A stretch of 64,000 nt of DNA from a virus, in the IMG/VR virus record IMGVR_UViG_3300010883_000001, positions 1-64,000 of that record; one strand, given 5' to 3'. The position numbers and the translations under genes were made by a program. Below, one piece after another: positions 33,082 to 55,286 of this stretch. The number at the start of each line of letters is the position of its first letter. Positions within the stretch are counted from its first letter, which is position 1. Below the pieces are notes generated by a model. That model saw only the letters and a program-made list of their open reading frames with translations, had not been told where the DNA came from and did no database searches.

Positions 33082-36000
33082 ATGGCTGAGCAAACTTTTC
33101 GTTCACCTGGGTTTTTCGAGCAAGAAATTGATCTTTCATCGAAAAGAGCTGCTGCTTTGGGAACACCCGCTGGTGTAATAGGTACTTCGCAAAAGGGACC
33201 GGCATTTGTCCCTGTTGAGGTTGGGACTTTTGTCGATTTTACACAAAGATTTGGGAGCCTTGATCCTAACATGTTTGGACCTTATGCTGTTAGAGAATTC
33301 TTAAAGCATAGGCAATCCCTTACATTTCTTAGGGTCTTGGGCGCGGGTGATAATGAGACAATTACAGATATATCTACGACTGAGACTGCTGGGACTGTTA
33401 AGAGTGCTGGATTTAAGGTCGCATCGACCGTCGTTGATGCCGCTGCAATAGAAAAACATCAGGGTGCAGTCCAGTTTCTTGTGGGTAGGCATAAGCTTAG
33501 GGGCCATGAGTCAGTGGGCTTTCCAATGTTTTCAGATAACGTTAGTACACCGCTTGGGACAAACCGACTAGCAGGGTCTGCATCATTCGGAGGATTATCA
33601 TCTGAGACAGTAAACCTGGTTAGGGCCGTAATATTAATGGCATCTGGCACTAGAGCAGGGATTGTTTCAGGTTCTGTTACAGATAGTATAAGTAAGACAG
33701 CAGGTGATACTGGGTTTATCCAGAGTTCTGGTGACATGAAGGGTCGCTTTGGTTTATTCTTAAGCTCGACCGCAGGTCACAGTTATGGGTCGGCAGAGGG
33801 TATAAGTGGTGTTAGGGTATATACGGCCAGCTTAGATCCTAGAGACCAATATTACATATCAAAGATTTTAAATACAGACACTAGGGCCTTCGCGGAAGAA
33901 GAGCATTTACTCTATCTAGATCTCGCGGTTGAGGATGAATTAGCCGCAGTACCAGAGGGTGAGCATGTAGGTCACATAGCGATGTTGTCGGGCTCTGCTT
34001 CAACTTCATCAACCTCTGGGGCTAATACAACAGTATTTAGGGATTTATTTGGGAGATTTGATACTAGATATACGACACCTAGGACCCCATCAATTCTATC
34101 ACAACCATATGGCAGAACTGAGCATGCATTATTCTATTTCGAGACTATATCGGACGGCGAGGCTGATAATTCAAATTTTAAGATATCAATTGCTAATTTG
34201 AGAAAGAGTACAGATCCAAAAGATGAATATGGGACATTTGAGGTTCAGGTTAGAAAATATAGTGATAATGATTTAGCACCAGATATTTTAGAGAGATATT
34301 CTGAATGTAGCCTTAATCCTTTTAGCGAAAATTATATTGCTAGAAAGATTGGTGATAAGAAGGTTAAATATAATTTCGACGCGACCGATGAGGATGAACA
34401 GAGATTAGTAATTTCCGGAAAATACCCGAATCGCTCCGGTCGAATTCGTGTTATTATGAACCCGAACGTCGACAGGGCTCTTGTTCCTGGGGACGTATTA
34501 CCTTTTGGATTTACCGGTATTCCTACATTAAAAACGTCTGAAACGCTCACCGATGTTACGACTACGGCACTAGCGGATGATAATGGAATTGCACTGGGTG
34601 CCGCCACAACAGACCGGTTAGCATTCGTAAACCTGCTGGCCAATCATGGCACCTCGGCCAACGCCGAGGCAGTACTAAATAGATTATCAGCATTGACAGG
34701 TTCTATAGTACCTCCTCTTCCATTTAGATTCAAACAGACGCGTGGCGCTGTTGCTGAGACACCAACTAGAGTTGGAGAGGTTGGAACAAACGAAAGGGTT
34801 GATAGTCGACTATATTGGGGTGTTAAGTTTGAATGTGCTCCAATGTCATCATCACATGCCCAGGGTTCAACTCCGTCAGCAGCACTAAATACTAACATTG
34901 GATCGTTAAAAAATCCTCTTGTCGCTGCTTATGGGAAATTTCAAGGCATCTTAAAGCTCGATACTCTCGTTACCGGCGCCGGCGCAGATAAGTTTAATAA
35001 CAATAAATTTACGTTGGCGCGTGTGGCATTAGATGATCAAACATTATCAAGTTTAACGTCCAGTGCTAAAGAGCATATGATCAAGGCTTCATATATCCGG
35101 AATGGCCTGTGGGATTCTGTTGACTATAGGGTAAAAGACCCTGTCTGGAATAATGCTGGAGGTTCCTTAAACAGAATAACCATGGCGTCGCTTGTGCACA
35201 CATCGGCAGTAACATTTAATAGGTTCACTGATTTTGCAAAGTTTTCGACTATGTTTTTTGGTGGATTTGATGGAGTAAATAAACTTGATGGTGATGTTGT
35301 AAACATGAACCATAAGGCCGCGGCCGTTGGAGCCGGTGGGAAGGCTGGATCAAGCTATACTGGTGGCATGGGGCTATTAGGAACAGACGATGGTACACTG
35401 ATGGGTACCGGTCGTCATAATAATTCAATTGTATCATATAGGCACGCAATTACAATAATGACAGATCCTATGGCATCTAGAATTAACATCCTCGCAATTC
35501 CAGGAATAAAGGATGAATTTGTTACTGACTTTGCTGCCCAACGAGTTAAAGATTATGGTATGGCATTATATTTGATGGATATAGAATCGTATGATGCTAG
35601 TAAAAATATATTATTTGATGATAGTACAGCAAGGATAGATGTTCAGGAAACAGTCGATCAATTTGAAGGAAGAGTTGTGGATAATAACTACACCGCGACA
35701 TATTTTCCAGATATTTTTATCGAAGATCCTGTTAATAATAGATCCGTTGAGGTACCGGCATCCGTTGCTGCTATAGGCGCACTGGGATTTAATGACAAGG
35801 TTGCATTCCCATGGTTTGCTCCTGCTGGATTTAATCGCGGCGCATTATCGGCGGTACAGAACGTGAAGACAAGACTAAATTCTGCTGATAGGGATACATT
35901 ATACGATGCTAGGATTAATCCAATAGCATCTTTTCCAAATAGTGGATACGTTATATTTGGGCAAAAATCATTGCAGATGGCTAAATCAGCATTAGACAGA

Positions 36001-36309
36001 GTTAATGTTAGAAGAATGCTTCTGGAAGTTAAGCGATTAATTGTCGGTATTTCTAACAGGCTATTATTTGAACAAAATAATGCAGAAACAAGGTCACAAT
36101 TTGTAAATCAGGTTACGCCACTGTTGGCGCTGGTTCAAGCCCAAGCGGGTATAGAACAATTCAGGGTTATTTGTGATGATTCTAATAATACGGAATCTGA
36201 TCGCGAGGCTAGTAGGATGAACGGAAAGATCGTTGTCGTTCCCACTAGGGCGGTCGAATTTATTGCTATAGATTTTATTATCACAAATAGCGGAGTTAGT
36301 TTTGAGTAA
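33082..36309 (+). CDS. Tail sheath protein 1 (T4 gp18-like)
   Basis: 1075 residues, the contractile sheath subunit. The N-terminus has FRSPGFFEQEIDLS and GTPAGVIGTSQKGPAFVPV, typical of myovirus sheaths; the C-terminal domain (coding about 35810-36060) has FAPAGFNRGALSAV, INPIASFP, YVIFGQKSL and ALDRVNVRRMLLEVKR, the conserved core that bundles around the tube. T4 gp18 is 659 residues; the surplus lies in the middle as protruding domains. Start ATG 33082 after AAGGAG. It is paralogous to the next gene, 42 bases away. Confidence 0.93.
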   Translation: MAEQTFRSPGFFEQEIDLSSKRAAALGTPAGVIGTSQKGPAFVPVEVGTFVDFTQRFGSLDPNMFGPYAVREFLKHRQSLTFLRVLGAGDNETITDISTTETAGTVKSAGFKVASTVVDAAAIEKHQGAVQFLVGRHKLRGHESVGFPMFSDNVSTPLGTNRLAGSASFGGLSSETVNLVRAVILMASGTRAGIVSGSVTDSISKTAGDTGFIQSSGDMKGRFGLFLSSTAGHSYGSAEGISGVRVYTASLDPRDQYYISKILNTDTRAFAEEEHLLYLDLAVEDELAAVPEGEHVGHIAMLSGSASTSSTSGANTTVFRDLFGRFDTRYTTPRTPSILSQPYGRTEHALFYFETISDGEADNSNFKISIANLRKSTDPKDEYGTFEVQVRKYSDNDLAPDILERYSECSLNPFSENYIARKIGDKKVKYNFDATDEDEQRLVISGKYPNRSGRIRVIMNPNVDRALVPGDVLPFGFTGIPTLKTSETLTDVTTTALADDNGIALGAATTDRLAFVNLLANHGTSANAEAVLNRLSALTGSIVPPLPFRFKQTRGAVAETPTRVGEVGTNERVDSRLYWGVKFECAPMSSSHAQGSTPSAALNTNIGSLKNPLVAAYGKFQGILKLDTLVTGAGADKFNNNKFTLARVALDDQTLSSLTSSAKEHMIKASYIRNGLWDSVDYRVKDPVWNNAGGSLNRITMASLVHTSAVTFNRFTDFAKFSTMFFGGFDGVNKLDGDVVNMNHKAAAVGAGGKAGSSYTGGMGLLGTDDGTLMGTGRHNNSIVSYRHAITIMTDPMASRINILAIPGIKDEFVTDFAAQRVKDYGMALYLMDIESYDASKNILFDDSTARIDVQETVDQFEGRVVDNNYTATYFPDIFIEDPVNNRSVEVPASVAAIGALGFNDKVAFPWFAPAGFNRGALSAVQNVKTRLNSADRDTLYDARINPIASFPNSGYVIFGQKSLQMAKSALDRVNVRRMLLEVKRLIVGISNRLLFEQNNAETRSQFVNQVTPLLALVQAQAGIEQFRVICDDSNNTESDREASRMNGKIVVVPTRAVEFIAIDFIITNSGVSFE

Positions 36310-36351: not shown

Positions 36352-39300
36352 ATGGCGCGATTGGATTTTAAAAGTCCGGGAGTTAGCACGCGAGAAATTG
36401 ACCTCAGTGGACCAACCAGGGTTTTACCCCAGGGCACGCCCGCGGGAGTTATTGGGACATCGTTAAAAGGACGAGCGTTTGTACCCATAACGTTTGCAAC
36501 ATATCAAGATTTTGTCGCTGAGTTTGGCACCACGGATGGTGAGAAATTTGGTCCTCTTGCTATCAACGAGTGGATGAAGAACGCAAGGGCAGGTACATAC
36601 ACACGTGTTCTTGGAGTAGGTGATGGTAAGAAGCGCCGAACGGCGGCATCAGCTACAGGTGCCCCTGCCGGACGAGTAAATCGAGCCGGGTTTGTTGTAG
36701 GTGCACAACAGGTACAGTCAAATGGAACTGTTGGCCATAATGCTGCGACGGTTGTTCCAACAAATGCTGTACCTGGAATTACGGGAAAAACCTTCTTTCT
36801 TGCGGCATTAATGCAAGCGCAAGGGACAAGTAAAATATTTTCCGACGCTGGAATTGATGCTGCAACAGAGGCAATGCCAATAATCAGAGGCGTAATCATG
36901 GCTGCTTCGGGCATTATGCCGGCGCTATCATGTTCTTGGGCAAACGGGGCTACACTTCTTAACACGGTTATTTCAAGTCGTCCAGCAGGTAAGTTCTTTT
37001 CCTCTCATGGATCTAAGACTGCAACTACAAATGCTGGTGCATCATTTGGCACTGTTAAAACCTTAAGTGGAGATCCTACATTTACAATTCTATTAAACGG
37101 ATTAAAGAAGAGTGATTCTTACCCTAACGTTATAACATGTTCATTTGATCCAACATCACCTCAGTATATATCAAAGGTTCTTAATAAGGATCCTGAGAAA
37201 CTCGAGAAGGCCGGCTATATGTTATATACACATTATGATATATTTCCAGCTTTGGCAACCGTATCAGGTTCTAGAAAAGGCACAAACCAGACTGATTCCT
37301 ATAAGCTAAATAAACACCAGGGTCTTGCCGGCTCTAATACGCACATTGCCGCATTATTACTTTCATCATCGGTTACATCTGATAATGGTAGTGCTACAAT
37401 ACCAAATTATGAAAATTTTGAAGACAAATATAAAACTGCAAAGACACCATTTATAATATCTCAAAAGTTTGGTGTTTCAAATAAGAACTTATTTAGGATC
37501 CATGCTTTGGACGATGGTGCATCTGCAAATGATCTTTTTAAGATAACGGTAGAGAATATCCAGTCTAGTAACAATTCAAATAACAAGTATGGCCAATTTG
37601 ACTTAGTTGTGAGGGATTTTTATGATTCAGATGAAGACGCAAAAGTATTAGAGGCATTTAGAGGCTTATCACTAGATCCAGGATCCGATAGGTATCTATC
37701 CAGGATCGTAGGTGATCAAAATGTATTTTATGATTTTAATCAGGCTCCAGGTGCACAAAAGCTTAGAGTTGACGGCGTACATGCAAATGTTTCAAAATAT
37801 ATTAGGGTTGAGGTTACCCAGGACGTTGCACAGGCTCGTATTGATGAATCTGCGTTACCCGTTGGGTTTAGAGGTCATGACCACCTGGTAACATCAGGTT
37901 CATCGATAATGCAAGCAACTGGCTCCGTCTCCGCCGGTGTTACACTTGATTATGTTCGAAGAGTCGTACAACCCCCTGTACCTATGCGTGAAACAGTCGC
38001 ACAGGGTCAGGCACCTAAGAAACGTTCAAATGCAGCTCTTTGTTGGGGCGTACAATTCGAGATGAAAGACAGCATTGTAGAACCAAATAGATCACAGAAA
38101 ACAGATCCTAGTCTTGTATCTTTTACAAAGTACTTTCCAAACTTTGCAACAGCCTATCAGAACGTCCTTGCTGGTGACAATGAGGGTGTGGCTGATGTGG
38201 CCGGAACAATATTGGACGCTGACCGGTTTAACAACAACTTCTTTACATTAGAGAGGGTGCAGGTATCAACAGGGTCTGATGATAGACCAATATCAGGTAG
38301 GTGGTCCGCGGCCGAGTATCGCAGAAATGGCGTTGAGTCTGCTACGCTTACTTTAGAGGATGGAACAACCGTAAGTAAAGATAGCACCAGGTTCCTTGAT
38401 CCGGCAAAAGATTTTAATCATGCGCCATCAAAGAAATGGCTTAAGTTTAATATGTTCTTACAAGGTGGGTTTGATGGTCTCAATATTTTTGATCATGAAA
38501 AGGGTCAAATGACAAACCTAGCCGCAAAGAGAGAGATGGACGACTCCATTAATCAAGGCGGCGTTTCAGGTCCAACTGTTGCTGCATTTAGAAAAGCAAT
38601 AGATATTATGGAAGAAAAGGCTGATGTTGATATCCAGCTGTTGGCGATCCCAGGCATTAGGCACGAAGGTGTGGTAGATTACGCAATAGACTCTGTCGAG
38701 GCCAGCTTTGATGCACTATATATTCTGGACATACAGGAACGTGATGCGTCAAATAACGTAGTTACTGGTTCTTCTCAATTAATTGATGTTACAAATACGG
38801 TTTCAGACTTTGAATCAAGAAATCTAAATTCATCATTTGCCGCAGCATATTTTCCGGATGTCGTAATTACAGATCCAAGGACATTAACAAATGTAAGGTG
38901 TGCACCATCCGTCGCGGTCCTGGGTGCTTTTTCTAGAAATGATGTTGTTGCCCACCCATGGTTTGCACCGGCTGGTTTTACTAGAGGGTCATTAACCTCA
39001 GTAGAAGAGGTTCAGGTTAAGCTGAAGAAAGCAAATATGGATTCCCTTTATGAAGCGGATATTAATCCAATAACATCTTTTCCTCATGGTGGTGGTCCGG
39101 TTATCTTTGGTCAAAAGACATTGTTGGCGACCCAGAGTGCTCTGGATAGGGTAAATGTTAGAAGGTTGTTGATAGACATTCGTCGAAAGGTTAAGATAGT
39201 AGCGAATAGCGTACTATTTGAGCCAAATAGAGCTTCAACGCTAGCTAGATTCTCTTCGTTAGTAAGTCCAATACTACAACGGATCCAGGCGCAACAAGGT

Positions 39301-39456
39301 CTAGACCGATTTAAGGTACAAATTGATACATCAACAACGACGCAGGCCGATGTTGAAAATAATACAATAAGAGGAAAGATATTCCTCCAGCCTACACGGG
39401 CACTGGAATTTATTGCTCTTGATTTTGTTGTAACAAATCAAGGTGCAGAAATTTAA
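36352..39456 (+). CDS. Tail sheath protein 2 (paralogue)
   Basis: 1034 residues. It shares with the preceding gene the N-terminal pattern (FKSPGVSTREIDLS, GTPAGVIGTSLKGRAFVP), FGPLAINEWMK, and the C-terminal core (FAPAGFTRGSLTSVEEV, INPITSFP, VIFGQKTL, ALDRVNVRRLLIDIRR; coding about 38960-39230). The middles are clearly diverged, so the duplication is old. Both copies keep the residues of the core domain, suggesting that both are assembled. They might form a mixed or segmented sheath, or be used at different tail positions. Strong ribosome site TAGGAG. Confidence 0.92.
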   Translation: MARLDFKSPGVSTREIDLSGPTRVLPQGTPAGVIGTSLKGRAFVPITFATYQDFVAEFGTTDGEKFGPLAINEWMKNARAGTYTRVLGVGDGKKRRTAASATGAPAGRVNRAGFVVGAQQVQSNGTVGHNAATVVPTNAVPGITGKTFFLAALMQAQGTSKIFSDAGIDAATEAMPIIRGVIMAASGIMPALSCSWANGATLLNTVISSRPAGKFFSSHGSKTATTNAGASFGTVKTLSGDPTFTILLNGLKKSDSYPNVITCSFDPTSPQYISKVLNKDPEKLEKAGYMLYTHYDIFPALATVSGSRKGTNQTDSYKLNKHQGLAGSNTHIAALLLSSSVTSDNGSATIPNYENFEDKYKTAKTPFIISQKFGVSNKNLFRIHALDDGASANDLFKITVENIQSSNNSNNKYGQFDLVVRDFYDSDEDAKVLEAFRGLSLDPGSDRYLSRIVGDQNVFYDFNQAPGAQKLRVDGVHANVSKYIRVEVTQDVAQARIDESALPVGFRGHDHLVTSGSSIMQATGSVSAGVTLDYVRRVVQPPVPMRETVAQGQAPKKRSNAALCWGVQFEMKDSIVEPNRSQKTDPSLVSFTKYFPNFATAYQNVLAGDNEGVADVAGTILDADRFNNNFFTLERVQVSTGSDDRPISGRWSAAEYRRNGVESATLTLEDGTTVSKDSTRFLDPAKDFNHAPSKKWLKFNMFLQGGFDGLNIFDHEKGQMTNLAAKREMDDSINQGGVSGPTVAAFRKAIDIMEEKADVDIQLLAIPGIRHEGVVDYAIDSVEASFDALYILDIQERDASNNVVTGSSQLIDVTNTVSDFESRNLNSSFAAAYFPDVVITDPRTLTNVRCAPSVAVLGAFSRNDVVAHPWFAPAGFTRGSLTSVEEVQVKLKKANMDSLYEADINPITSFPHGGGPVIFGQKTLLATQSALDRVNVRRLLIDIRRKVKIVANSVLFEPNRASTLARFSSLVSPILQRIQAQQGLDRFKVQIDTSTTTQADVENNTIRGKIFLQPTRALEFIALDFVVTNQGAEI

Positions 39457-39504: not shown

Positions 39505-39993
39505 ATGGCAGATACTCTATCAGTCGCGAGAATGTTACCAAACAAATTTGAACCGAAACGAAAGTTTCGTTGGGTCTTTGCAATAGAGGGTATTGATGCT
39601 TTCTTGATGAAGACAGCTGCACGGCCGTCATTTACTACTACGGGCGTTGAGCTAAATTATATCAATTCAACTAGATTTATTGCAGGTAAGACAAAGTTTG
39701 ACACACTTGCCGTTACACTGCATGATCCAATAGCACCATCTGGTGCACAGCAGGTTATGGAGTGGGTACGTACTCATTTTGAATCAGTATCTGGTCGTGC
39801 AGGCTATGCTGATTTTTATAAGAGAGACTGCCAACTTAAACTTCTAGACCCAGTAGGTACAGTTGTTGAGTTGTGGGATATCAAGGGATGTTTTCTAGAG
39901 CAAGCCGGTTTTGGCGATCTAGATTATGGCTCCGAAGATCCGGCGGATATTTCTTTAACCATTAGGTTTGATAACTGCGTACTGCAGTACTAA
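39505..39993 (+). CDS. Tail tube protein (T4 gp19-like)
   Basis: 162 residues, equal to T4 gp19 in length. It forms the hexameric rings of the inner tail tube through which DNA passes. Visible are the N-terminal PNKFEPKRKFRWVFAIEG, then PSFTTTGVELNYIN, the DTLAVTLHDPIAP strand and the C-terminal PADISLTIRFDNCVLQY, all typical of the family. It follows the two sheath genes and precedes a strong terminator, an order seen across contractile phages. Confidence 0.92.
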   Translation: MADTLSVARMLPNKFEPKRKFRWVFAIEGIDAFLMKTAARPSFTTTGVELNYINSTRFIAGKTKFDTLAVTLHDPIAPSGAQQVMEWVRTHFESVSGRAGYADFYKRDCQLKLLDPVGTVVELWDIKGCFLEQAGFGDLDYGSEDPADISLTIRFDNCVLQY

Positions 39994-40153: not shown

Positions 40154-41008
40154 TTGAGTAACGATAATACTAGATCATCAAATGAAATATTCACGGCTGA
40201 TCAAGCACGTGCCATGGGGCATCAAACAAGAAACGTTTTAAAAGACGATTTCAATTTTGAGATTCCTGTTGAAACAGTTCCATTACCAAGTGCTGGTATA
40301 TGCTATAATGCTGATTCTCCCTTATTCCAGAAACAGACTGTTGAAATAAGGGCAATGACTGCAAAAGAGGAAGACATCCTAACATCTCGAGCACTTATAA
40401 AGAACGGGACGGTTATAACACAGCTTCTAAAGTCATGTCTGGTTGATAGGGACATAGATCCTGCAAAAATGTTGTCAGGTGATAGAAACGCAGTTATGAC
40501 AGCATTACGAATTACCGGTTATGGTAATGAGTATAAGACGGAGGTTGACTGTCCAGAGTGTGGCGAACGCTCAAAGCAAGAATTTAACCTATCTGAGTTG
40601 CCCATTAAACGTCTGCAGATTGATCCTGTTGTTCCAGGTGCTAACCAGTTTAACTTTGTTTTACCTGTTACAAAAAAAGACGTTGTATTTAAATTTTTAG
40701 ATGGTACAGATGAAAATGAGATTCAAAAAGTTATGGAAAGAAGAAAGAAGCAAGGCGCTGCTTCCGAGTCTTTGATAACAACAAGATTACAATATTCAAT
40801 TATTTCCGTAGCTGGTATTACTGAGAAACATAAGGTTAATCTCTTTATTAGGAGTATGCCGGCAAGAGATTCATTGGCTTTGAGAAATTATATTGATACT
40901 CATGAACCGGGTATAGAAATGGAAGCATGGATGGAATGTCCAAGCTGCTTTGAAACGACGGAGGTAAAGATGCCCTTAGGGGCATCGTTTTTTTGGCCTG
41001 ACTCCTGA
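40154..41008 (+). CDS. Tail assembly chaperone / baseplate hub protein, first frame (T4 gp26-like)
   Basis: 284 residues; TTG start at 40154 with CGGAGG upstream. The family (I recall it as the T4 baseplate gp26 type) is recognised by VPLPSAGICYN, EIRAMTAKEEDILTSRALIK, a SGDRNAVMTALRITGYG block and two cysteine pairs, CPEC and CPSC, likely binding zinc. It lies directly before the tape measure, the place of tail assembly chaperones in most phages. The frame ends soon after a T7 run at 40988; a +1 shift there enters the frame that continues to 41261. It therefore probably makes two products, short and extended. Confidence 0.75.
   Translation: MSNDNTRSSNEIFTADQARAMGHQTRNVLKDDFNFEIPVETVPLPSAGICYNADSPLFQKQTVEIRAMTAKEEDILTSRALIKNGTVITQLLKSCLVDRDIDPAKMLSGDRNAVMTALRITGYGNEYKTEVDCPECGERSKQEFNLSELPIKRLQIDPVVPGANQFNFVLPVTKKDVVFKFLDGTDENEIQKVMERRKKQGAASESLITTRLQYSIISVAGITEKHKVNLFIRSMPARDSLALRNYIDTHEPGIEMEAWMECPSCFETTEVKMPLGASFFWPDS
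40978..40994 (+). promoter_or_regulatory. Candidate +1 programmed ribosomal frameshift site
   Basis: The zero frame reads TCG TTT TTT TGG CCT GAC TCC TGA. Skipping one T of the seven at 40988-40994 changes it to TTT TTT GGC CTG ACT CCT GAG, which stays open to 41261. An AGGGG at 40978-40982, five to eight bases before the run, could act as the anti-SD-binding stimulator seen in the prfB type of +1 shift. No start codon sits at a proper distance from the AAGGAG at 41013, so separate initiation of the second frame is poorly supported. Confidence 0.7.
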
Positions 41009-41261
41009 GGATAAGGAGATATTTCTAGAGCATATATTTTTATTGATGTACTATACTGGGTTTACCTATTGGGGTGCCTATAAGTTACCAATATGGCAAA
41101 GAATATGGTTCATAGAGAGAATTAATACAGAGTTCGAAAGAGCTAATAAAGCAAATGGCCAATCCCAGTCTAGGGCGGCTCATCATAATACACCGGATCA
41201 TAGATCAATGATGGGAAATGCTAGACCTCAGGTTCCCGCTCGGCTCAGACGATTTACTTAG
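40995..41261 (+). CDS. Tail assembly chaperone, second frame (T4 gp51-like extension)
   Basis: Reached by the +1 shift at 40988-40994, this frame encodes GLTPEDKEIFLEHIFLLMYY, then WGAYKLPIWQRIWFIERI, and ends LRRFT. The sequence upstream of the first possible start (TTG 41043, ATG 41046) is plainly protein-like and continuous with the helix after it, which argues that it is translated as an extension of the 40154 product rather than alone. Such fused proteins load onto the tape measure during tail assembly, as lambda gpGT does. In T4 the corresponding gp26 and gp51 are listed as separate hub factors. Confidence 0.7.
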   Translation, partial: GLTPEDKEIFLEHIFLLMYYTGFTYWGAYKLPIWQRIWFIERINTEFERANKANGQSQSRAAHHNTPDHRSMMGNARPQVPARLRRFT

Positions 41262-41345: not shown

Positions 41346-44300
41346 ATGGCTGAAGGTAATGATGGTGGACAGCTAGGTGCGGCAATGTCCATTAATAAGG
41401 TTCTTCAAGAAAGAACAGCCCTTTTAGATAAACAATCAAATGTCTTATCTTCTCAAGTTAAGATTGCCATGGAGTTGTGTAAGGCTCTAGAGTGTAAAGA
41501 TCTAGATGGCATGATTGATCGTGTCAATGATATTAATGATTCCCTTAAAAAGAGTTCAAAAGAAGCTAAGAAGATGGGTAAAGATACCCAAGGCGCGCTC
41601 AAGAAGACGGGCAAACAGGCCGATAAGACAAAATTAAGTACAAGCTCAATATTTAGTAAACTCACGCCCTCCGCCGGCGCAGCCATGGGTGCAATATTTG
41701 GTTTCGGCAGCGCACTTAAAGGTATCGGTGGATTAATATCTGCCGGTGTTAAAGGTGTCTTTAGTCTTGTTTCATCATTCTTCAAGCTAGGCGCCACCAT
41801 TGTTATGGTCCCATTTAAAATGTTGTCTGGCCTTATAGGGATGGCTCAAGAAGAAATGAGTGGCAGCAACGGTCTACGTGACGCAATAGAAGAAGTGCGT
41901 GATGCATTTGGTAGCCTGACAGAAGCTACTGGTGGAAAATTCATGGCTTCCATGAACCATATGAGACAGACCGCTAGTAATCTTGCCGGTTCAGGTCGGT
42001 CACTAGCCAGCATATATGGCCATGGCCCAGAAGGCATTGCTAATGCGTTCAAGGACAATCTTGAGTTTACCAAGGCTCTCGGAGGTGCCTATGATGAGCT
42101 AGCGCAGACACTCGACAAAAAAGCACTAGCGAAGTTCGTCATATATAGAAAAGCACTCGGTTTGACAGGCGAATCACAGGCTGCAATTCTTAAACAGGCA
42201 ATGAATTTAGGCGAAGATCCTGTTAAGGCCATGGCCAAATTCGGTGCAGCAGCAACAAGGATGTCCAAGGCGACAGGGGTTGCAGTAAAAAATATTACGA
42301 AGGCCATGTCTGAGATGATTGAGGAGGTCGACAGTTTTGGTGTTATGGGACCGAATGCAATGTCTGCCGTTGCCGCCTGGTCAAACAAAACAGGCGTCGA
42401 AATTAAGACACTAGCGTCAATTACAAATAAATTCTTAAACTTTGAGGATGCTGCTGAGTCCGCGGCAAAGTTGAACCAGGCGTTGGGAATGAACGTCGAT
42501 ACAATGAAGTTGATGAAAGGTGGTACAACCGCTATTGAGGAGCTGAATAGATCTTTTAAGGCACAAGGAAAGACACTTAAAGATCTATCGGTTGCAGAGA
42601 GACAAATGATTTCTAATGCAACCGGCCTACAGGGTGCCCAACTTAGCGCCGCACTTGGTGAGAAAACCAAGAAGAATGAGATGAAGAAATTCAATAAGCA
42701 AGCCAGGATGCAACAAAAGATATTGGTTAATCAGGAAAAGCTTATTAAGAAACTGGGCAAGATGATAAAGAAGACGTTTGGCCAGGGTAGCAAACAGTTT
42801 AAAGGATTTTTTGATGCGTTTGTGAAGGGCGTTGAGCGTGGTGTTAAAAGATCACAACCAATGCGAAAATTGTTTCGGAATATAACAAGATCTTTATGGA
42901 TGACCCATAGGGCCGGCCGAAAAGTTGGTAAGGATTTCGTAAACTTCTTCCCCGGGTTTAAGCAGTTTATAAAGGGCCTTCAAGAATTCTTTAGTCCAAA
43001 GTCATTTAAGCCAATGCTGGGCGAGGTTGTGTCTGCCTTTAAGGATTTCTTTAAGATGCTGGATAAAGATCCGGATGCCAGTTTTGAGATGTTTTTTGAT
43101 AGAATAAAGAAGGCATTTCTGAAATTTTTTGGTGGAAAGGGTGGTGCCGTAGACAACGTAAAGTCGGGTGGATCAAAAATACTCAAAGCATTTGGGCAAA
43201 TATTTAAACATCTGTTAATCAAGGCCGCCGAAGGTGTGGCATTCCTTCTGAATAAGTTGGCAGATCTGATAGAGAATCCGGCCCCGCTAGTGACGGCTGC
43301 CAGTAAGGCGTGGAACACTCTAGCAGATGCTTTTGGTAGAATATGGGAGATACTCATTACCAAGATTGCCCCCCCACTTGGCCGGGCCTTTGAGAGATTA
43401 TTCACAGTAATAGGAAAAAAACTAGGTAGCTCTGGTGTTCTTAAAAAAGTCTTTAGCGTATTGGCCAAAGTTTTCATCGCTAAATTGATGCTATCAATGT
43501 TAGCCAACGCGATAAAGGGTGGCCTTGTAATTACAATAGGTAGGAAGATTGCCTCTTTTCTTGCCATGGCAATGACCCCTAAAGTCCCGGGTCCAGTTAC
43601 GGGATTTTGGACAACTTTATTTACTCAAAGTGCTACCACATCGACAGCTGCAGCCGCAAACGCAAAAGCTCCTGTCGCTCTAGGTATTGCCGGCATCCAA
43701 AAGATAATACCTTTTATATTGGCCTTAGCACTTTTGATTCCTGCGGTATATGTTCTTTATCAGGTTGCAAAGTCAATGAAGTCTTCTGCGATTGCAAAGA
43801 CTGCATTACTCATGGCCGCCGTTGCCGGTATGGCTGTTGCCGTCGCCGCCACTGCATACGCATTAACTACAGTAGCTGCATCACCCGCAGAGACGGCCCT
43901 GGCTGGCGTGCCTAAGATGGCAATGGTGATGGCAGGCGTCGGCGTCGTGGCCCTAGCAATAGTTGCCCTAATGTCTACGTTGCCGAAGATAGAAACGTCT
44001 GTTATTGTTGCATTTGTGGCAGCGATGTTGGGAATGGTCCTGGGGGCTATACCAATATACATGGCCGCCGTCGCGATGGGGACGGTAACAATGGCATCCG
44101 GAGGCCTGGATCAGGCAGCATTGGTTGCTGGCCTATGGACATTAACAGCAGTGATGGCCGTTGTTGGTCTTTTAGGTGTAGCCATGGTCGCATCAATGAG
44201 TATGTTCTCCAAGGATTCTGCTGAAAAGACAAAGAACATTATGGGTCCATTAGCCTCATTACTAGCGGTGGTTGGTCTGACCCTAATTCCTGCAATATTA

Positions 44301-46862
44301 ATTGCGGGTATAGCATCCGCGGGAATACTTGGAGCTATTGCTTTGGTGGCCGGTCTCGGTGCACTAGCGATCGTCTTTGATGCAATTGTAGGTGAGGGTG
44401 GTGTGGCCGAGAGGATGGTCAAGTTAGCAGATTTAAAGGTTGGAAATCCTGGTAATTTTAAGCAGGTTGTTGAGGGTATATCTGCTGGAATTAAGGCCGG
44501 TGCATGTCTGATGATGGCATTGGCTGAGATAATTGACCAGGCAGATGACTTTGCCGATAATCATGAAGAGATGGATATGATCCTAGGTCATATGAAAAAT
44601 CTCATTGATGCAGTCTTGAAAAATGGGATTGTTTCGATTGTTGACAAGTTGGCAGAGTTAGCAAAGATAAAAGATATTAGCTCTGAGGCCGGCCCAGCAA
44701 TTCGAGCCATATCAGGCGCAATTAATGCTTCAGCTGCGATGATGAAGGCAGTGCAGTTTCCAAAAGAGATGTTCTCGATGATCGAAGAGTTAGATGACCC
44801 GGACATGATAAATCAGGTCTTTACCAAAATGCTAGCCCACCAAAAAGCTGTTTTTGACACGATGACAAAGAAAGATGGCTTGCTTGATGTTGTTATCGAT
44901 AAATTTATGTCTCCAGAATTTACCTCTCGCCTCAGCAAGATTCCGGAACCAGAGAAGGTTGCAAAGCTCATAGGTGGTCTTTCTAAGATGATTGGTACCG
45001 TCATGAAGATTGGTTCCGCATTTTCGATGAACCCCCAAGAGGCTAGCGTATTGAATAAGTTGACGGAGGAGGATGATGATGAGACCCTGGACGCAATAAA
45101 GGCACTGAACGATCGTCAAGATAAAATGATGCAGAATATGCCGGCGATGCTAACAGTAATGATGGATGGTGTCAAAGGCATGGTCACAGAACTGGGTCCA
45201 ATTTTCAAAAAAATAGAGACCTTCTCAGGTTCAACTGAAAAAATGCAGGCCGGTGGTTCTATTATTTCGGCTGTCATGTCTGGAGCGGCAGCGGTTTTAG
45301 GTGCGGTAGTTCAGGCCGTGGTACCAATTATTGATATGCAAAAGAGTATTGTTTCAAAGCAGAAAGGCCCGCTAGCTGCAGCGCAGCAGGGCAGTAGTTT
45401 CAAGTTATCCAAACTCATGGGTCCCATAAGCAATCTAATGACCGATGTTTTGGGTGCCATTAATAATCTAGATCTAACAAAGATGTTCAAGGGAATTATG
45501 GAGGCCGTATCGATCCCAACTGCCTATACTACACGAATTGAGGCTGCTGCAAAGCTATTGGGTCCGATCGTGGGTATGATAGGAACAATAATCCAGGCAA
45601 CAAGCCAGTTGGCTACTACATTTTTAAAGAATAATACTGAAAAATTCGCGAAAGATGTTAGCAAAAAGAAAGATGCTGCCGGCAATGCAATAGATGCAAC
45701 CAAGTCTACCGGTGATAGTGTAAAGCACATAATGGGATCTATAGGTGAAATATTTAAGCAAATTGATGTGGGTCCAGCCATTAAATCAGCACTCGCTGCA
45801 GCAAGGGGCTTGGGTAAGAGTAAGGGCGCTCTTAAAAGTGTCCAGACGATAACCGGTCTAATGGCCGCTGTAATGAGTATGATATCAGGTATAGCAGGGG
45901 TCTTATCAGCAAGTGAAGATGCTGTCAAGGATTCTCCGGCATATACAAATGCCAAACGTTTGCTTGATTATAATGAGGATTCATGGGAGAAAACGTACAA
46001 AACCGCAAGTCACTCCCAAGGGGCAGCATATGTGGCAACCAAGGCCAAACACTCAGAGAAGATGGCAGACCTTCGTAAAGCGGCAATTGAGGATTCCGTT
46101 CCCAGAATAACGAGGTCGATGGAAAAAATGGGCGGCTTGATGAAGGCCGGCGGCCCGATCGATAAGATGATTAAGGGGATTTCGGATAAAGATGGTATCG
46201 GTGCGATTCCAAAAAATATTGTTCAACGGACTGCAAACCTGGTTGCGATAATGACGGATATGGGCAAGTTGATGCAGGTAATGGGTGATGAGAAAATGGC
46301 CGCGGCACTTACCAAAGGGGCAGGTGGCACTACGAAGCTGGAAGCCAATGCCAAAATGCTGAAAGATGGAATAACGAGAAGCGTGGTCAACGATATCTTG
46401 CGGGTAGGAAAGAATATCAAGAAACTGGGCAGCCTAGGGGTGACGGAGAAGAACGTAAAGGCAATGAGCCAGATGTCTATAGCGTATCTTGAGGCTGCAA
46501 AACTGGGTAGTGATATCAACACCTTTAATAATCCTGGTGATAAGATAAAAGAGGTAGGCATAGCTATTTCTGAGGGTGTGACCACATTTAACAAGATGTA
46601 TGGAATTAAGAAGGGTGGCCTTAAGGCTGTGTTAGACATTGCAAAAGCATTAAACACAAATGGTTCACTCACTATTAAGCATGATGTAACTGACAAGATC
46701 CAGATTGAGGTTAACGTTAAGCTGGATGCAGAGTCTGTTGCCGCCGCCGTCAGTAATACTAAGGCTGGAAAGGCTAGCACCCCACAATCCAGTGCGGCCG
46801 GACCGAAGAAGAAGGTAGCCAGTAAATCTAAGAGATCGGCCGTTGCCTCAAAGACGCAATAG
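41346..46862 (+). CDS. Tape measure protein
   Basis: 1838 residues, the largest gene here, following the chaperone as expected. It has long Lys/Ala-rich helices at both ends and Gly/Ala/Met-rich hydrophobic stretches at residues ~105-165 and ~720-1030, some long enough to be membrane-spanning (FILALALLIPAVYVLYQV), typical of tape measures that are ejected with the DNA. No lysozyme or peptidase domain was recognised. By the usual ~0.15 nm per residue it could specify up to ~275 nm of tail. T4 gp29 is 590 residues. The start follows CGGAG. Confidence 0.88.
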   Translation: MAEGNDGGQLGAAMSINKVLQERTALLDKQSNVLSSQVKIAMELCKALECKDLDGMIDRVNDINDSLKKSSKEAKKMGKDTQGALKKTGKQADKTKLSTSSIFSKLTPSAGAAMGAIFGFGSALKGIGGLISAGVKGVFSLVSSFFKLGATIVMVPFKMLSGLIGMAQEEMSGSNGLRDAIEEVRDAFGSLTEATGGKFMASMNHMRQTASNLAGSGRSLASIYGHGPEGIANAFKDNLEFTKALGGAYDELAQTLDKKALAKFVIYRKALGLTGESQAAILKQAMNLGEDPVKAMAKFGAAATRMSKATGVAVKNITKAMSEMIEEVDSFGVMGPNAMSAVAAWSNKTGVEIKTLASITNKFLNFEDAAESAAKLNQALGMNVDTMKLMKGGTTAIEELNRSFKAQGKTLKDLSVAERQMISNATGLQGAQLSAALGEKTKKNEMKKFNKQARMQQKILVNQEKLIKKLGKMIKKTFGQGSKQFKGFFDAFVKGVERGVKRSQPMRKLFRNITRSLWMTHRAGRKVGKDFVNFFPGFKQFIKGLQEFFSPKSFKPMLGEVVSAFKDFFKMLDKDPDASFEMFFDRIKKAFLKFFGGKGGAVDNVKSGGSKILKAFGQIFKHLLIKAAEGVAFLLNKLADLIENPAPLVTAASKAWNTLADAFGRIWEILITKIAPPLGRAFERLFTVIGKKLGSSGVLKKVFSVLAKVFIAKLMLSMLANAIKGGLVITIGRKIASFLAMAMTPKVPGPVTGFWTTLFTQSATTSTAAAANAKAPVALGIAGIQKIIPFILALALLIPAVYVLYQVAKSMKSSAIAKTALLMAAVAGMAVAVAATAYALTTVAASPAETALAGVPKMAMVMAGVGVVALAIVALMSTLPKIETSVIVAFVAAMLGMVLGAIPIYMAAVAMGTVTMASGGLDQAALVAGLWTLTAVMAVVGLLGVAMVASMSMFSKDSAEKTKNIMGPLASLLAVVGLTLIPAILIAGIASAGILGAIALVAGLGALAIVFDAIVGEGGVAERMVKLADLKVGNPGNFKQVVEGISAGIKAGACLMMALAEIIDQADDFADNHEEMDMILGHMKNLIDAVLKNGIVSIVDKLAELAKIKDISSEAGPAIRAISGAINASAAMMKAVQFPKEMFSMIEELDDPDMINQVFTKMLAHQKAVFDTMTKKDGLLDVVIDKFMSPEFTSRLSKIPEPEKVAKLIGGLSKMIGTVMKIGSAFSMNPQEASVLNKLTEEDDDETLDAIKALNDRQDKMMQNMPAMLTVMMDGVKGMVTELGPIFKKIETFSGSTEKMQAGGSIISAVMSGAAAVLGAVVQAVVPIIDMQKSIVSKQKGPLAAAQQGSSFKLSKLMGPISNLMTDVLGAINNLDLTKMFKGIMEAVSIPTAYTTRIEAAAKLLGPIVGMIGTIIQATSQLATTFLKNNTEKFAKDVSKKKDAAGNAIDATKSTGDSVKHIMGSIGEIFKQIDVGPAIKSALAAARGLGKSKGALKSVQTITGLMAAVMSMISGIAGVLSASEDAVKDSPAYTNAKRLLDYNEDSWEKTYKTASHSQGAAYVATKAKHSEKMADLRKAAIEDSVPRITRSMEKMGGLMKAGGPIDKMIKGISDKDGIGAIPKNIVQRTANLVAIMTDMGKLMQVMGDEKMAAALTKGAGGTTKLEANAKMLKDGITRSVVNDILRVGKNIKKLGSLGVTEKNVKAMSQMSIAYLEAAKLGSDINTFNNPGDKIKEVGIAISEGVTTFNKMYGIKKGGLKAVLDIAKALNTNGSLTIKHDVTDKIQIEVNVKLDAESVAAAVSNTKAGKASTPQSSAAGPKKKVASKSKRSAVASKTQ

Positions 46863-54077: not shown

Positions 54078-55286
54078 GTGATTGCTATATCAAAAAAAAT
54101 TCTAGGCACAAAAGATAACCTGATTATTAAATGTGATGATGAAATTTCGTGGTCCCCCCACGTATCAAATGACGTGTGGTGTTATGGTGATGACTATCAT
54201 ATAAGGTCTTTGAATATTCTTTTTGATATTTTAAAAATAAAGGGCCCAGTATTAAATTATGCCAATCATGTCATGGCATTCCGAAATTTAGGAATTGACG
54301 TTGATAGCATTGATATACCCATGAGGCACGTCGTTGGTCAACAAAAGTACGTCCGTGAACTTCGTGATATCATTAGAGACATATCATCACTATCTGATGA
54401 CATTCTAAAGAACGTCTATGTGCAAACATATATAAAATCTAGGGAGCTTCTATCAGCCCTTGATGATGCTTCTATAAATTTGGAAAAATTTGACCTATAT
54501 GTCTCAAAAGAGAAGAACCCTACCAATTTGTCTGCTATTAATAGTTTTAAACCTGTTTCCGGAAATAAGTCTGGCAAGGTAGTTTATTCTCAATCGTCTA
54601 CGCAAACTGGTAGGATGGTTGTTAAGAGTGGGCCGCGGATTTTAACGCTTCCATCGAAATATAGGGATATAGTCTGTTCGGCTGACGATTCAAAAAAGAT
54701 TGTTGGAATAGACTTTATCTCGCTGGAACCTAGGGTTGCGGCATACCTTACTGGGCAGACACCTAATGATGATATATACGAGGACGTTAGGGAAAATATC
54801 GGGCTTGATATATCTAGGACGGCATGTAAACTAGCGGTACTGACAACATTATATGGTGGGACAAAATCAAAGATATCTGAAATATTGAATATTCCAATTT
54901 TTGACGCAACAAAGATAATGAGTAGTATAATTTCTTATTTTGGTATCACCGGTTTGAGAATGATGCTCAAGAAACAAGCAGATGAATTTGGATCATTCAT
55001 GAATTTTTTTGGGCGCCCTATTTTTTGTGATGAAGAGAAGAGTAGAAATATAGTGAATCATCAAATTCAGTCGACGGCAGTAGATGTTTCATACGTGGGA
55101 TTTCATTCATTGGTTGAGAAGGCAAAATCTTCGAATACACATTTCAGGCCCTTATTTTTATTGCATGATGCGCTTATAGTTGAAGTAGACAAGGATGATC
55201 CTAATATCGGAGAACTAGTTTCTTCCGGAATTAATTGTGAGTTAGGATATTTCCCATTATCCTTGACCGAGTGGGGTAGTATTTAA
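54078..55286 (+). CDS. Minimal family A DNA polymerase (polymerase domain only)
   Basis: 402 residues from a GTG start at 54078 (no strong ribosome site). The thumb-to-palm segment TGRMVVKSGPRILTLPSKYR leads to motif A, DFISLEPR (Asp212, Glu217, Arg219). Motif B runs R247-x3-K251-x3-L255-x3-Y259, with Leu at the place of E. coli Phe762. Motif C is HDA (363-365), where family A enzymes normally have HDE. No 3'-5' or 5'-3' exonuclease domain is present in the N-terminal ~150 residues. Leu762-type PolA is known from marine viruses. The second carboxylate of motif C being Ala is unusual. It leads the replication cluster, replacing the family B gp43 of T4. Confidence 0.85.
   Translation: MIAISKKILGTKDNLIIKCDDEISWSPHVSNDVWCYGDDYHIRSLNILFDILKIKGPVLNYANHVMAFRNLGIDVDSIDIPMRHVVGQQKYVRELRDIIRDISSLSDDILKNVYVQTYIKSRELLSALDDASINLEKFDLYVSKEKNPTNLSAINSFKPVSGNKSGKVVYSQSSTQTGRMVVKSGPRILTLPSKYRDIVCSADDSKKIVGIDFISLEPRVAAYLTGQTPNDDIYEDVRENIGLDISRTACKLAVLTTLYGGTKSKISEILNIPIFDATKIMSSIISYFGITGLRMMLKKQADEFGSFMNFFGRPIFCDEEKSRNIVNHQIQSTAVDVSYVGFHSLVEKAKSSNTHFRPLFLLHDALIVEVDKDDPNIGELVSSGINCELGYFPLSLTEWGSI

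Follow-up and report, generated by a model that had tools for sequence, protein, structure and literature searches.

A gene of the T4_baseplate family in a marine virus of bacteria ends inside a second, overlapping reading frame, raising the question of whether that frame is a gene of its own or is entered by ribosomes that change frame at a run of seven Ts. The window analysed here is a 64,000-nucleotide stretch (positions 1 to 64,000) of the 145-kb virus record IMGVR_UViG_3300010883_000001. The original prediction had proposed that a +1 frameshift at the T run joins two tail-chaperone frames ahead of the tape measure gene, and we found the second frame to be open and under selection in 79 distinct relatives. 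The 0-frame stop, the T run and the extent of the +1 frame were confirmed (Table 1); the fused product, first put at about 372 residues, comes to 368.

Overlapping frames ahead of the tape-measure position

The locus lies where a G/GT-type pair is expected: sheath, tube, chaperone and extension are followed by a 1,838-aa gene in the tape-measure position, and the gene at the same place in Flavobacterium phage immuto is annotated as tail tape measure. The sheath gene in Table 1 is one of two tandem tail sheath genes (33082–36309 and 36352–39456), each encoding more than 1,000 aa with the sheath domains C-terminal. The 0-frame protein (284 aa) begins at a TTG preceded by GGAGGT and ends in GASFFWPDS. 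In profile searches, it matched PF12322 (E 2.8e-16; 58–60 bits against a curated cut-off of 24.5) and phrog_150 (E 3.8e-21). For structure prediction, the 0-frame part and the extension were folded separately. The AlphaFold2 model of the 0-frame protein (pLDDT 86) has predicted T4-like baseplate hub proteins as its nearest viral models; no solved structure in the PDB matched it, the HK97 tail chaperone 2ob9 giving a weak match (E 1.9, probability 0.15). The extension is predicted, with low confidence, to be mainly helical.

Table 1 Features of the chaperone locus and its neighbours in the window
Feature	Coordinates	Strand	Evidence
Tail sheath (context)	36352..39456	+	PF17482, PF04984, phrog_23
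Tail tube, gp19-like (context)	39505..39993	+	phrog_4542 E 1e-31; PF06841 E 2e-4, below Pfam cut-off
0-frame T4_baseplate (gp26/gp51 family) protein, short form	40154..41008	+	PF12322, phrog_150, AlphaFold2 model
GGAGGT, SD-like element under synonymous constraint	40960..40965	+	TCG GAG GTN in relatives
Hairpin GATGCCC-TTAG-GGGCATC closely preceding the T run	40969..40986	+	More stable than synonymous randomisations
T7 run; proposed slip from TTT (40991–40993) to TTT (40992–40994), 0-frame TGG occupying the A site	40988..40994	+	Second Phe codon TTT in 62/62; TGG and CCT invariant
+1-frame extension, 88 aa, GLTPEDKEIF...	40995..41261	+	Conserved in 79 distinct loci; pN/pS 0.31/0.91 in the +1 frame only
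1,838-aa gene in tape-measure position (context)	41346..46862	+	Position and size; immuto gene there annotated tail tape measure

We consider it very probable that a +1 programmed ribosomal frameshift at UUU_UGG yields proteins of 284 and 368 residues, in the manner of lambda gpG and gpGT. Most ribosomes on the gene would terminate at its own stop and release the 284-residue chaperone. With tRNA-Phe on the second UUU and the single-tRNA Trp codon UGG in the A site, some ribosomes would move forward by one base; the tRNA-Phe would re-pair with the overlapping UUU, GGC would be read next and translation would continue to 41261, yielding a form of 368 residues that carries a helical extension at its C terminus. 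Both the occurrence of frameshifting and its efficiency are read here from sequence. Position, arrangement and family suggest that both forms serve the adjoining tape measure, the short one as a G-like and the long one as a GT-like tail assembly chaperone.

In lambda, as here, an overlapping pair of frames precedes the tape measure and specifies a short and an extended tail protein (PMC5009743), neither of which is found in virions (PMC5009743). By contrast, the lambda shift is −1 and its protein belongs to the gpG family, whereas the shift proposed here is +1 in a PF12322 gene. Listeria phages PSA, A118 and A500 also use +1 shifts in tail genes, but at CCC_UGA (tail) and in a different gene (PMC5009743). 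The tail frameshift of the myovirus HSTV-2, an archaeal virus, is, as here, 'very likely +1' (PMC5009743). Among the open-licence papers searched, we found no report of the frameshift described here.

Selection on the second frame and its possible starts

We fetched relatives with the +1-frame protein, obtaining 79 distinct regions that fall into 62 clusters below 85% identity; because they were fetched by protein alone, codon choices in the 0 frame were not selected for. In these relatives, the +1 frame is open from the slip site onward. In the window, it reads FFGLTPEDKEIFLEHIFLLMYY from 40989 and remains open until a stop at 41259–41261. At +21 to +48, ahead of a conserved ATG, the +1 codons gave pN 0.31 and pS 0.91, whereas the same bases gave pN/pS of 0.45/0.30 and 0.44/0.47 in the other two frames (the set includes loci L209–L286, which were chosen for the motif and were excluded from the codon statistics). 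Judged by this substitution pattern, the +1 frame is under protein-level selection upstream of any usable start, and the claim that its residues before any start codon are protein-like held up.

These observations bear directly on whether the second frame could be a separate gene, translated by re-initiation or internal initiation at the ATG at +51 (41046) or at a CTG at +3. Sixty of the 62 clusters have a Met codon ATG at +51, gene callers begin the cyanophage extension at an internal ATG, and one relative, LR756511, shows a stop/start overlap, all as a separate gene would have it. However, a Shine–Dalgarno (SD) sequence is absent before the ATG at +51 in 60/62 clusters and before the CTG at +3 in 62/62, whereas the 0-frame gene, examined as a positive control, shows an SD-like match ahead of a possible start in 61/62. 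The AAGGAG noted earlier at 41013 is present in the window. In 44/62 clusters, the stretch from the preceding +1-frame stop to the slip site contains no ATG, GTG or TTG. Moreover, 17 conserved codons under protein-level selection lie 5′ of the ATG at +51, and the extension prolongs the 0-frame protein, collinear with T4 gp51. A separate gene is thus very unlikely to account for the second frame.

A few phages have a possible independent start for the second frame: LR756511 (TAATGG overlap), Atu_ph07 and Phosso (ATGA overlap) and 121Q (TAATG). Since an ATG lies near the slip site in the last three and a stop and start overlap in the first, re-initiation is possible in these phages. In LR756511, a 595-kb phage, the 0 frame continues past GFFFP and the next frame begins at the TAATGG, a junction that may represent a switch to re-initiation.

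The proposed slip site and neighbouring RNA elements

The proposed site has the character of a G/GT-type slippery site, being conserved and followed by an open second frame under selection. TTT-TGG-CCT is invariant among the relatives, with TGG and CCT fixed; the slip codon is UUU in 62/62 clusters against a background of 69%, and the first Phe codon is TTT in 58/62. UGG occurs 7.4 times per 1,000 codons and is not among the rarest codons. The motif TTTTTTTGG is no commoner in the window than expected by chance (2 found against 1.8 expected), so the significance of the site rests on its conservation in relatives. The second TTTTTTTGG, at 55004, is out of TTT-TTT-TGG phase and lies in a gene (54078–55286) whose 402-aa product matches DNA polymerase A.

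Upstream of the slip codon, at a distance of 25 nt, we found a conserved (TC)GGAGGT element that is synonymously constrained (TCGGAGGT). Its TCG codon is used in 55/60 against a background of 11% and its GAG codon in 60/61 against 46%; the adjoining Pro and Gly codons vary freely. Binomial p values (UUU, 8e-11; TCG, 5e-48; GAG, 3e-19) treat clusters as independent and are therefore underestimates, although the effects themselves are large. The window version of TCG GAG GTN is ACG GAG GTA (40958–40966). The distant relative LR756508 has GAG GAG GTG 25 nt upstream of its UUU, and immuto has GGAGG at about the same site, over different amino acids. An AGGGG had been put forward as an SD-like stimulator; it is present at 40978–40982, but it is not conserved, and (TC)GGAGGT is the element that is. 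Likewise, aligning homologous loci bore out the open second frame and the slip TTT but not the AGGGG. The distance from GGAGGU to the slip codon, 25 nt, exceeds that of known SD-stimulated shifts, which makes its role less certain; in Escherichia coli prfB the SD-like element is 3 nt away.

The hairpin that precedes the T run ends 1–3 nt before it and exceeds synonymously randomised sequences in stability (mean z −1.2 across the 62 clusters). Its register differs among relatives, and covariation comes from one pair (36 seen against 23.7 expected). RNAalifold found no common structure in the region downstream of the slip site. The hairpin and the GGAGGU element probably assist slippage.

The T run itself admits two other readings. 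Transcriptional slippage on the seven Ts would produce a mixed mRNA pool, and most close relatives do have a seven-T run. However, 7/78 distinct loci have TTCTTTT (TTC TTT TGG), and immuto (TTTCTTT) and BRock (CTGTTTC) keep the +1 frame without a long run. In addition, an eighth T is avoided: 61/62 clusters have G or C immediately ahead of the run, and none has T. A T there would generate the −1 site T_TTT_TTT, and its avoidance therefore also fits a forward shift. We give transcriptional slippage almost no credence. A −2 ribosomal shift at UUU_UUU, raised as an alternative in the original prediction, would lead to the same final frame, and seven Ts permit the re-pairing; the TTC TTT TGG relatives (such as L008) and those with CTG TTT CGC cannot re-pair at −2, and TTC TTT TGG keeps +1 re-pairing, making a −2 shift highly improbable. 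A sequencing error in the run, which would have undone the proposal, was ruled out by the conserved arrangement in the 79 relatives and by matches to the exact 44-nt pattern TCGGAGGT-N22-TTTTTTTGGCCTGA in at least 120 IMG/VR stretches.

The family beyond close relatives and T4 gp26 and gp51

A tblastn search of named phages with the extension gave no match at E 0.01; we therefore used the 0-frame protein and IMG/VR to reach relatives, the named phages being found with the 0-frame protein. Mel-JY01, immuto, LR756508, SP-15, LIS04, SagM-GXN1, BRock and LuckySocke have an open +1 frame at the corresponding place. Their slip codons include UUU_UGG (Mel-JY01), CUU_UGG (immuto), UUU_CAC (SP-15), UUU_CGU (SagM-GXN1), UUU_CGC (BRock) and UUU_CAG (LuckySocke). 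Across relatives, the P-site tRNA could re-pair one base downstream on UUU_U, CUU_U or UUU_C; LIS04 fits less cleanly. The same UUU and CUU tRNAs slip forward in E. coli prfB (CUU_UGA) and influenza PA-X (UUU_CGU), and relatives here have CUU_U and UUU_CGU; the A-site codon in prfB is a stop, whereas in the window it is UGG. The SagM-GXN1 junction, UUC_UUU_CGU_C, matches the core of the influenza PA-X +1 site.

By contrast with the +1 scheme that had been extended to T4-like phages in general, nine named cyanophages and jumbo T4-like phages (Atu_ph07, Phosso, 121Q, GAP32, CBB, Vibrio 2.275, PA5oct, S-RIM8 and S-RIM2) have the −1 frame open at U_UUU_UUC at the same place, and T4 has two genes. 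The canonical −1 heptamer UUUUUUC is present in 56/56 distinct cyanophage-type loci, in which the open frame is −1. The usual first ATG of cyanophages lies 63 nt 3′ of the slip site and is the annotated start of a 46-aa 'baseplate hub assembly catalyst'; this is how the truncated extension genes of S-RIM8 and S-RIM2 are annotated, and the records of PA5oct and LIS04 do not show the extension gene at all. In profile comparison, the +1 and −1 fusions gave an alignment of 294 columns (E 7e-23). The +1 proteins form one clade in the tree (support 98/94) that contains several slip codons.

A link to contractile injection systems was considered and not adopted: the extension weakly matched DUF6760 (E 0.017), and among 149 genomes of the class, a search for DUF6760 found the related phage contig alone, below the cut-off. 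A search of plasmids gave no match. A second PF12322 locus in a Flavobacteriales metagenome-assembled genome (L329, G001:C64) has its extension in the −1 frame and apparently belongs to another T4-like phage.

T4 genes 26 and 51 are divergently transcribed, and both products match PF12322 and phrog_150. The two are listed as hub assembly chaperones (PMC3004832), gp51 being essential, of unknown function and not in the particle (PMC3004832). gp26 resembles the short form and gp51 the extended form, but T4 has two divergent genes and no frameshift, whereas the window has one gene with a proposed frameshift. gp26 covers profile positions 14–235 and gp51 positions 13–280. The −1 fusion aligns with gp51 in full, whereas its alignment with gp26 stops at the slip site. 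The window fusion aligned with gp51 over the 0-frame part and the first extension residues only (E 3e-5), and the extension alone gave no significant match to the T4 gp51 profile; the correspondence between extension and gp51 therefore comes from the full-length −1 alignment. On these profile alignments, gp26 and gp51 are full-length paralogues of the 0-frame protein, and the second frame corresponds to the C-terminal extension that distinguishes gp51 from gp26, not to a whole gp51-like frame as first described.

Two PF12322 genes are present in 8/8 T4-like genomes checked (T4 and seven others), the gp51 gene being divided into two open frames in one of them (G155), through either a sequencing error or a real break. 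Frameshift records have at most one, counting as one gene two matches in G166 that are adjacent pieces; this count applies where the profile detects the gene, as it misses Mel-JY01 and immuto. The tree joins gp26 and gp51 as sister clades (98/92) and places the pair next to the cyanophage proteins (98/93); this sisterhood could reflect long-branch attraction, as the gp26 and gp51 branches are long. Because the tree is midpoint rooted and has long branches, −1 as the ancestral state is a choice of parsimony. Given the gene counts and alignments, a gene duplication seems to have taken the place of the frameshift in T4, with gene 26 encoding the short form and gene 51 the long form.

The G/GT frameshift scheme is described as widely conserved in long-tailed phages 'except T4' (PMC5009743). 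We think it reasonably likely that T4_baseplate is the G/GT system of the T4 supergroup, in which an ancestral frameshift changed direction, being −1 at U_UUU_UUC or +1 at UUU_UGG and its variants, and a duplication in T4 fixed the short form as gp26 and the long form as gp51. The family would offer a natural series for a single gene, comprising +1 shifting, −1 shifting and a two-gene arrangement, and several phage records carry extension genes that were annotated truncated (46 aa in cyanophages) or missed (PA5oct and LIS04). If true, the T4-supergroup reading accounts for T4 as the exception to the G/GT scheme.
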